Positions 1-29,173 of a stretch of DNA of 58,411 nt are shown one piece after another. Both the position numbers and the translations under genes were made by a program. Source of the stretch: Lachnospiraceae bacterium (GTDB lineage Bacteria; Bacillota; Clostridia; Lachnospirales; Lachnospiraceae); contig JAFVAL010000033.1 of the NCBI GenBank assembly GCA_017480565.1, positions 1-58,411 of the forward strand. The letters are read 5' to 3'. Below the pieces are notes generated by a model. That model did no database searches and was not told the origin of the DNA. It saw only the letters and a list, made by a program, of their open reading frames with translations. How positions within the stretch are numbered: position 1 is the stretch's first letter; each line of letters starts with the position of its first letter.

Positions 1-137
1 TCGTCAGGCCAAGGGTTTGCCTACAGCTTCCTTCAGATTCCACCTCGTGATGGACACCCTTGCTGTTCAGCTATGTACTTCGTCGTTGCCTACGCGTACT
101 CGGGACTTTCACCCGTTAGAGCGCGCCCATGGCGCGC
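1..137 (-). mobile_element. Group IIC intron, 5' end (partial, runs off the left edge)
   Basis: Read on the minus strand from 137, the sequence begins GCGCGCC, then GGGTGAAAGTCCCG, then AAGGGTGTCC, then GTGGAATCTGAAGGAAGC. This matches the start of domain I of bacterial group IIC introns such as the Oceanobacillus iheyensis intron (from memory). The 5' end is placed at 137 because the sequence just upstream is a terminator hairpin and its T-rich tail, which is where class C introns insert. The usual GTGYG start reads GCGCG here. The reverse transcriptase gene and the 3' end would lie left of the window. Confidence 0.8.
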
Positions 138-16268: not shown

Positions 16269-16301
16269 AAGCCCGTTGGATTTGTTCCGACGGGCTTTTT
16301 T
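16269..16301 (+). terminator. Terminator of the sugar-acid kinase operon
   Basis: AAGCCCGTtgGA pairs with TCCGaCGGGCTT and is followed by TTTTT. The last T bases run into the first TTGATC box of the array at 16300. Confidence 0.88.
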
Positions 16302-16639
16302 GATCCAAAAAGACTTATCTTCTCTTGGAAGATCAATTGGAATTATATGGACTTTCCAGAATTGATCTAAGACTTCAAAACACGCTAAAAAGGATAACCC
16401 TGCATTAGCTCATGCAATCTCTCATTGATCCATCAAGATGTATTTCCATGCAAAAAGATCAAATCGCCTTTCTTCGATTTGATCTTCCGTCTGACGTTTT
16501 CGAATTTAGGATCAATCTTGTCTATCTGCATGATAAAGATTTGATCTTTCTTCACACATTGAGCCTCTTTAGATCAACTCAGCCCTACCCAGAAAAGTTT
16601 GATTGATCTTTACCTTAAAAATCCAACCAATTGGATCAG
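16300..16639. repeat. Alternating-box array: TTGATC / GATCAA every 31 bp
   Basis: Exact TTGATC boxes start at 16300, 16362, 16425, 16479, 16541 and 16603. Exact GATCAA boxes start at 16331, 16457, 16510 and 16572. Degenerate GATCAA boxes lie at 16393 (GATAAC) and 16634 (GATCAG). The twelve boxes alternate orientation without exception, and spacers are 25 or 26 bp except one of 16 bp. Each GATCAA...TTGATC pair can fold as a hairpin whose stem often continues with unrelated bases. The best is 12 bp perfect at 16455-16486; 16331-16367 has 8 bp plus GGAA/TTCC. The 25-bp stretches between hairpins are all different. The sequence fills the gap between the kinase terminator and the convergent CapA-like gene; I see no credible gene in it. 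Function unknown. Confidence 0.85.
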
Positions 16640-28806: not shown

Positions 28807-28819
28807 GAGCTGGGGCTGA

Positions 28820-29043
28820 GACCCTGCATGTACTTTTTCTCTCCTGCAGGGTCTGATTTGATCAAGCTAATTGTAGCTTCAGCGACCCTGTATTCACCTT
28901 TCCTACCTACAGGGTCTGAGAAATCATCCTTTTCATTTCTCCCAGTGACCCTAGCTAAGGTTATATCTCTCTTCAGGGTCTCGAAGCAAGTCATTTTGCT
29001 CGCTTTTGCAGACCCTGACATCTTAGCTTTCCTTCATAGGGTC
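28820..29043. repeat. Alternating-box array: GACCCT / AGGGTC, period 63-64 bp
   Basis: GACCCT boxes start at 28820, 28884, 28947 and 29011; AGGGTC boxes start at 28848, 28911, 28975 and 29038. They alternate strictly. Segments from AGGGTC to GACCCT enclose exactly 30 bases three times, and segments from GACCCT to AGGGTC enclose 22, 21, 22 and 21. The 30-base segments each contain an inner hairpin of unrelated sequence (AAGCTA/TAGCTT, GAGAAAT/ATTTCTC, AAGCaAG/CTcGCTT). The first two short segments extend the box stem by GCA/TGC and GTA/TAC. A degenerate partner (AGGGGGT, near 28790) and a lone GGGGTC (29100) flank the array. It lies between two divergent promoters. An ATG-started frame across it (28801-29085) has no ribosome binding site and is not accepted as a gene. 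Confidence 0.85.
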
Positions 29044-29173
29044 TCGCTCCAGCCATATCCACCTAATGAGAAGATCTTTGCCTAAACATTTCTCCTCGCG
29101 GGGTCTTCCGTCTTGCCCCGCACATTCATTTCTGGTATGATAAGTCCATCGTAACACAGGAGGTCACTACACG

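Follow-up and report, generated by a model that had tools for sequence, protein, structure and literature searches.

STAR elements and BIMEs are the nearest known kinds of sequence to the arrays that we describe here, and a defining feature of each is missing from these arrays. The STAR elements of Staphylococcus aureus are intergenic, occur at many loci, and are built on a 14 bp core, T(G/A/T)TGTTG(G/T)GGCCC(C/A), which forms direct repeats of one GC-rich word; the spacers, 40 bp or longer, vary from locus to locus. The elements are distributed unevenly among related species, and their function is given there as unknown (PMC3532100). Our arrays resemble them in being intergenic (the 15 examined), multi-locus (at least 27 loci) and patchy in occurrence (2 of 40 genomes, with at most 100 candidates scored in each), but are composed of alternating TWGAYYCTG half-sites rather than a directly repeated STAR core. 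They are unlike STAR elements also in their fixed three-turn step, in their word classes, and in their spacers, which are near chance even within one array. REPs and the BIMEs they form are characterized as regularly spaced, alternating, extragenic and protein-bound, the REPs being palindromes tagged GTAG or CGTC (PMC2817692, PMC3733652). The arrays, too, alternate, are regularly spaced and lie outside genes, but possess no conserved palindromic stem, and neither tag was noticed in the table of their pooled half-sites.

Two families of operators also invite comparison. BusR binds a pair of motifs at a fixed distance, three turns together, that is read by a coiled-coil ‘molecular ruler’, and its operators are few, with four determined sequences (PMC8517857). 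The arrays are like these in their fixed three-turn geometry, whereas BusR has no long arrays. MerR-family operators sit in the 19/20-bp spacer of promoters (PMC7722741); the arrays differ in having a core-to-core distance of ∼28 bp. Within the literature that we searched, which was judged by title and the start of the abstract and included few subscription papers, there was no description of such arrays.

Two arrays in one window

The window (the whole stretch of Lachnospiraceae DNA analysed, 58,411 nucleotides) contains two arrays (Table 1). The preliminary description reported the first as twelve alternating boxes, ten exact and two degenerate, and this is confirmed. The exact hexamers are at 16300, 16331, 16362, 16425, 16457, 16479, 16510, 16541, 16572 and 16603, and the degenerate ones at 16393 (GATAAC) and 16634 (GATCAG). 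Orientation alternates strictly, and successive steps are 31, 31, 31, 32, 32, 22, 31, 31, 31, 31 and 31 bp. When steps of 30–33 and one mismatch per box are tolerated, the longest unbroken run in array 1 is six. Dinucleotide shuffles of the whole window (n = 200) gave runs of four at most, reached in 3, and local shuffles of 500 bp (n = 2,000) likewise gave four at most, also reached in 3. Across the host genome a three-box pattern occurs at 8 places, and its reversed control at 0. The coordinates given earlier for array 1 were correct, but a second such array lies elsewhere in the window. Array 2 was detected by a word-free search, described below, and has steps of 31–32 bp; its core half-sites are 0.95 identical, its dyad interiors 0.32 and its linkers 0.22, in an array found without reference to any word. 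Tandem Repeats Finder, at a score of 40, missed both.

Table 1. Positions in the window of the two arrays, their dyads and one RNA family match
Feature	Position	Strand	Description
Array 1	16300..16639	.	GATMAA word class; 12 alternating half-sites = six dyads
Array 1, dyad 1	16300..16336	.	TTGATC-N25-GATCAA
Array 1, dyad 2	16362..16398	.	TTGATC-N25-GATAAC, right half degenerate
Array 1, dyad 3	16425..16462	.	TTGATC-N26-GATCAA
Array 1, short central linker	16463..16478	.	16 bp; step 22 instead of 32
Array 1, dyad 4	16479..16515	.	TTGATC-N25-GATCAA
Array 1, dyad 5	16541..16577	.	TTGATC-N25-GATCAA
Array 1, dyad 6	16603..16639	.	TTGATC-N25-GATCAG, right half degenerate
Array 2	28818..29107	.	GACCC word class, AGACCCTG / CAGGGTCT; ten alternating half-sites = five dyads
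Array 2, dyad	28818..28855	.	GAGACCCTG ... CAGGGTCTG
Array 2, dyad	28882..28918	.	GCGACCCTG ... CAGGGTCTG
Array 2, dyad	28945..28982	.	GTGACCCTA ... CAGGGTCTC
Array 2, dyad	29009..29045	.	CAGACCCTG ... TAGGGTCTC
Array 2, dyad	29071..29107	.	AAGATCTTT ... CGGGGTCTT, left half weak
Group II intron end (RF02001)	1..54	minus	cut by window edge

A family of arrays in the host genome

The host assembly is 98.76% complete and comprises 76 contigs, here numbered with the prefix C. GATMAA arrays occur in it six times: array 1, on C24, and the arrays at C12:42476, C32:170, C40:10410, C44:5262 and C59:17735, over which the box generalizes to GATMAA/TTKATC. A sequence-only model of four boxes of these arrays (model R1) has at least 32 matches in the genome, and among the best 150 of 589 candidates all of them fall inside the six arrays. 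Those on C12 and C32 have an identical series of 11 steps (31, 31, 31, 32, 31, 32, 31, 32, 31, 31, 31) and unrelated spacers; the C44 series departs from it at one step, by one base; and array 1 and the arrays on C59 and C40 have in common a short central linker, with a step of 22, ten below 32. The segments between boxes, called unrelated in array 1 at the outset, prove so across all six arrays, spacer identity being 0.294 at matching positions (147 pairs) versus 0.284 at non-matching ones (660 pairs).

The word-free search looked for any hexamer that alternates with its own reverse complement at a constant step, in at least six boxes, and covered 1.89 Mb (overlaps included). It yielded two new arrays—array 2, and a CCGAAA/TTTCGG array adjoining a GATCAA array on C89 of RUG14165, a genome to which we return—and the remaining matches were confined to Thermoanaerobaculia repeats and one low-complexity place. 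Since it found other words with the same step, the idea of a single-word DNA site was dropped. An IHF-like site was rejected as well: the IHF consensus, WATCAANNNNTTR, agrees with half of the GATMAA box, but no TTR follows downstream, and the words differ in other arrays. Within 917 kb of the host genome, a sample that deliberately includes six array regions, runs of five or more boxes occur at steps of 30–33, and the range from 18 to 60 holds a single other match (step 22). The same search gave no runs in 10 shuffled windows, none of five or more in 136 kb of G001, a relative of the same genus, and two matches, at steps 21 and 54, in 400 kb of four other Lachnospiraceae. Chains of four boxes at steps of 30–32 numbered 4 in those 400 kb and 1 in the G001 sample, which is the level seen at other steps.

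A search with the half-site class GAYYY/RRRTC at the true steps found 11 chains of at least five boxes in the 917 kb; at five control offsets there was no chain of five or more, and one of four. Chains of at least five numbered three in RUG14165, and none were present in G001 or the other Lachnospiraceae. A second model (R2), for which 32 windows of two dyads each were taken from every word class, has at least 41 matches at 27 or more host loci, with at most 100 candidates scored per genome; scans added two further loci (C55:26663 and C15:39028), bringing the number to 29. Setting aside those on C27, C29 and C67, six are of the GATMAA class, about eleven GAYCC and about nine GACTC; at least three arrays (C55, C31:131452 and C30) mix classes. 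Some arrays are located at the end of a contig or close to one (C31:131452-131588, C58:8299-8592, C32:170 and C5:6909-7232 in the host; C17, C57 and C161 in RUG14165), and so short-read assemblies may break on arrays and undercount them.

Anatomy of half-sites and dyads

Pooled in left orientation, 138 half-sites from 14 arrays give the consensus TWGAYYCTG. In each of the three word classes the dyad centre is an A/T-rich triplet (AWT) at +17 to +19, and a dyad comprises TWGAYYCTG, ∼8 bp, the AWT centre, another ∼8 bp, and the reverse complement, 37–38 bp in total. Half-sites flip every 31–32 bp, about three turns, and dyads repeat every 62–64 bp, about six. Because periods of 62 to 64 bp correspond to 10.3–10.7 bp per turn, helical phase is unequally exact between the classes. 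Steps within dyads (n = 69) are 31 (46), 32 (22) or 30 (1); steps across linkers (n = 55) are 31 (16), 32 (34), 33 (2) or 22 (3), of which 22 is shorter by one helical turn. The words kept in drifted arrays are GATCY or a TATCY variant (in the six GATMAA arrays), GACCC/GATCC and GACTC. GATMAA arrays accept weak half-sites, with core identities of 0.69–0.84. The host genome has 22 exact GATCAA/TTGATC pairs whose gap is 25–26, and 19 of them are inside arrays. The three solitary pairs are at C9:14308, C74:903 and C14:51459; only the last has dyad orientation, and those on C14 and C74 are, by eye, apparently coding.

Occurrence in other genomes

When model R2 was applied to 40 genomes, with at most 100 candidates scored in each, it matched the host and one place in RUG14165, an uncultured Lachnospiraceae of a different genus; the other 38, the same-genus relative among them, had no match. 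The arrays are so far known from two genomes of one bacterial family. Three-box patterns were sought in overlapping samples of 98 relatives, 397 genomes of the family, 391 of the class and 145 relatives of RUG14165. More than one match occurred only in the host and RUG14165, and the remaining genomes had none or a single one (4 of 98, 13 of 397, 9 of 391 and 6 of 145, respectively); the reversed control matched in 4 genomes of the family set, 5 of the class set and 3 of the RUG14165-relative set. We put the single matches down to chance, though not necessarily each one: true matches outnumber control matches (13 versus 4, and 9 versus 5), and a few isolated sites elsewhere may thus be real.

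RUG14165 carries arrays on four contigs (C17, C57, C89 and C161) and a single dyad on C168. Its GATCAA arrays have a dyad step of 32, once 33, compared with 31 in the host. The CCGAAA/TTTCGG array on its contig 89 (L181:2744-2905) has a step of 31–32 bp and a position ∼95 bp ahead of a GATCAA array, and its word does not belong to the GAYYC class. Genes assigned by eye, on their translations, to EamA-like transporters adjoin three RUG14165 arrays (L111, L127 and L310) or lie close by. Arrays of the GATMAA word are absent from three genus mates of RUG14165 and from the genus mate of the host. The preliminary description had held that absence of the pattern from the corresponding gaps of close relatives would count against it; in G001, the sole relative examined, there is no array beside the orthologue. 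The neighbouring gene differs in G001, which makes this a case of absence of the array from that species rather than of its chance occurrence in the host, and which also means that G001 gives no clean empty site.

A scan of 84,980 species genomes gave, among the 117 stretches listed, chains of at least four exact boxes only in RUG14165 and in Thermoanaerobaculia repeats. The latter have a period of ∼21 bp and were set aside. On four contigs of the Thermoanaerobaculia MAG Chersky.31_28 (L105, L108, L112 and L185) these repeats are degenerate, and TTGATC alternates with GATCAA (or GAACAA) each 10–11 bp, one helical turn; they are possibly a one-turn analogue of the arrays. A low-complexity match at step 51 (L094) was discarded. 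Model R1 matched weakly in 33 further genomes of 387 (best 1.6e-4), and the word-free search found no array in the loci fetched for these matches (L267-L294). In 43 viral stretches, no chain exceeded five boxes.

Neighbouring genes and candidate readers

Each of the 15 arrays examined lies between long open frames. Array 1 separates two genes that converge on it, one with PF07005/PF17042 domains and the other of the PGA_cap family (PF09587); the starts that flank array 2 diverge, and belong to a PTS_EIIC_2 gene and an unassigned 93-aa frame; and others occupy tandem spacers or, on C12, the space where two genes converge. On C31, a GACTC array has a gene of the YhgA-like transposase family (PF04754; L334:8868-10112) 4 bp away. 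The C40 array adjoins a small helix-turn-helix gene (HTH_3, PF01381), and among nine array-neighbouring proteins scanned for families none besides this one is, by family, a reader of DNA sites. No array neighbour stands out as a protein that would read all arrays. MerR-family (BmrR/Mta) half-sites such as GACYCT/AGRGTC resemble the words of the arrays, and RacA, a chromosome-anchoring protein, has a MerR-like domain. Simple regular expressions—a weak, crude and partial test, on frames from overlapping loci—found no MerR/RacA-like frames in a third of the host genome (6,626 frames) or among 927 frames of RUG14165.

What the arrays may be

Three options had been offered for array 1. The phased protein-binding array fits best, the repeat element fits in part, and the multi-hairpin RNA does not fit. 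We give about even credence, from the sequences, to the arrays being phased lattices for a putative dimeric ‘ruler’ DNA-binding protein. A protein that reads DNA would most simply account for half-sites that stay fixed at a three-turn spacing, for the variant shorter by one turn, for the A/T-rich dyad centre and for spacers that drift freely. Each array would constitute a linear lattice of candidate sites for a protein that binds a specific sequence, probably as a dimer or tetramer, and because the dyad repeat is about six turns, successive proteins would occupy roughly one face of the helix. The protein may gauge the distance between half-sites with a rigid ruler, as BusR does, and the word classes GATCY, GAYCC and GACTC may be read by related paralogues. 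Since arrays sit in convergent, divergent and tandem spacers alike, and since solitary sites are rare, the lattice might organize the chromosome—its anchoring, segregation or topology—rather than regulate single genes. Arrays would be seeded and amplified as 62–64 bp tandem repeats, and would then drift, selection keeping the half-sites and their spacing. Taken as a whole, a new chromosome-organizing system of 27–29 phased lattices, with paralogous coiled-coil rulers for different words, acquired sporadically and renewed by amplification of the six-turn unit, is a tentative proposal that we consider rather unlikely.

A serious rival, if in our estimation an unlikely one, is that these are selfish interspersed repeats of the REP/BIME or STAR kind: a transposase, a recombinase or replication slippage would spread and expand the 62–64 bp unit, and the half-sites would be what that enzyme requires, without function for the host. 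The arrays are indeed a dispersed family, some members of which have recently been amplified in tandem, and to this extent the repeat-element option was right, though it is only part of the picture. Loci on C30, C5, C43 and C37 share sequence at ∼68–78% identity over 80–220 bp, those on C31b, C9, C46 and C61 match over shorter lengths or more weakly, and fresh 62–64 bp tandem amplifications have unit-to-unit identities of 85% (C12a), 94% (C20) and 87% (C5). The restriction of R2 matches to 2 of 40 genomes, with at most 100 candidates scored in each, and the transposase-family gene beside the C31 array also favour selfish spread. Old arrays, however, hold 8–12 half-sites in register despite linkers that are near chance, which is unexpected of dead copies. 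Of 25 arrays, 15 have linkers at most 0.38 identical but core half-sites with identities of 0.69–1.00, a comparison for which two arrays had too few linkers and which is biased towards intact half-sites because several arrays were located by the half-site class or its model; among the 15, three drifted arrays retain an identity of 0.41–0.57 in the dyad interior. Nor did the young arrays C12a and C5 match phage and plasmid records, respectively (one array per collection), and no autonomous copy came to our notice in passing.

It is also conceivable, though we regard it as very unlikely, that the arrays are BIME-like sites at which DNA gyrase, or some other general enzyme of topology, acts. BIMEs are likewise alternating, regularly spaced extragenic palindromes, BIME-2 is bound by gyrase (PMC2817692), and one array begins directly after the gene for gyrase/topoisomerase IV subunit A. 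Gyrase is general, however, whereas the arrays occur in 2 of the 40 genomes (at most 100 candidates scored per genome) and are without the conserved hairpin of REPs. We consider it just as improbable that the arrays are clusters of operators for an ordinary transcription factor: the sites are dyadic and certain arrays occupy spacers between divergent or tandem genes, but array 1 and the C12 array are between convergent gene ends, and exact GATCAA/TTGATC pairs, the word class counted, are mostly inside arrays.

A multi-hairpin structured RNA is highly improbable, and we reject it. The inverted layout makes half-sites complementary, and the perfect 12-bp stem reported at 16455-16486 can be read from the sequence, but that stem is confined to one short central step. 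Paired but unconserved stems had been taken as a sign of selection on structure, for which compensatory changes would speak; on 266 pair cells (19 windows of GATMAA arrays) there are 0 double changes against a shuffle mean of 5.8, and 85.3% of cells are paired, below the 87.9% of shuffles. Dyad partners in the 14 arrays agree at 6.39 of 9 letters (69 pairs), across-linker neighbours at 6.53 (55 pairs), and other opposite half-sites of the same array at 6.62 (237 pairs). Partners are no more complementary than unrelated half-sites, and hairpins are therefore not the conserved feature; each half-site seems to be maintained on its own account. Genes around the arrays are of mixed orientation, the sole Rfam match in the window at gathering scores is the group II intron end, and Rfam searches of five array loci (E up to 0.1) gave one tRNA only.

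A CRISPR-like memory array, in which the 25-bp segments would serve as spacers, would account for short repeats between unique segments of 25–26 bp, but is extremely unlikely, as the boxes alternate instead of repeating directly and young arrays duplicate segments along with boxes. At E up to 5, array 1 matches 77 phage and 3 plasmid records; the matches listed (8 of the 77, and the 3) have E ∼4 and cover 9% of the array, which is chance level, and lend spacers no support, while six of the phage matches beyond those 8 are at least 99% identical. IMG/VR, searched with 2 of the 11 array 1 spacers, gave 0 exact matches and again no support.

Significance

The intergenic repeats known from bacteria keep their sequence, or a hairpin; what the old copies of the arrays described here preserve is little more than half-sites set out by a helical ruler. 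Should a protein read these, STAR- and BIME-like arrays would become open to direct tests of function, because sharp predictions follow from the half-sites and their spacing. The arrays would then represent a new kind of chromosomal landmark, one that can be detected by a word-free search for alternation.
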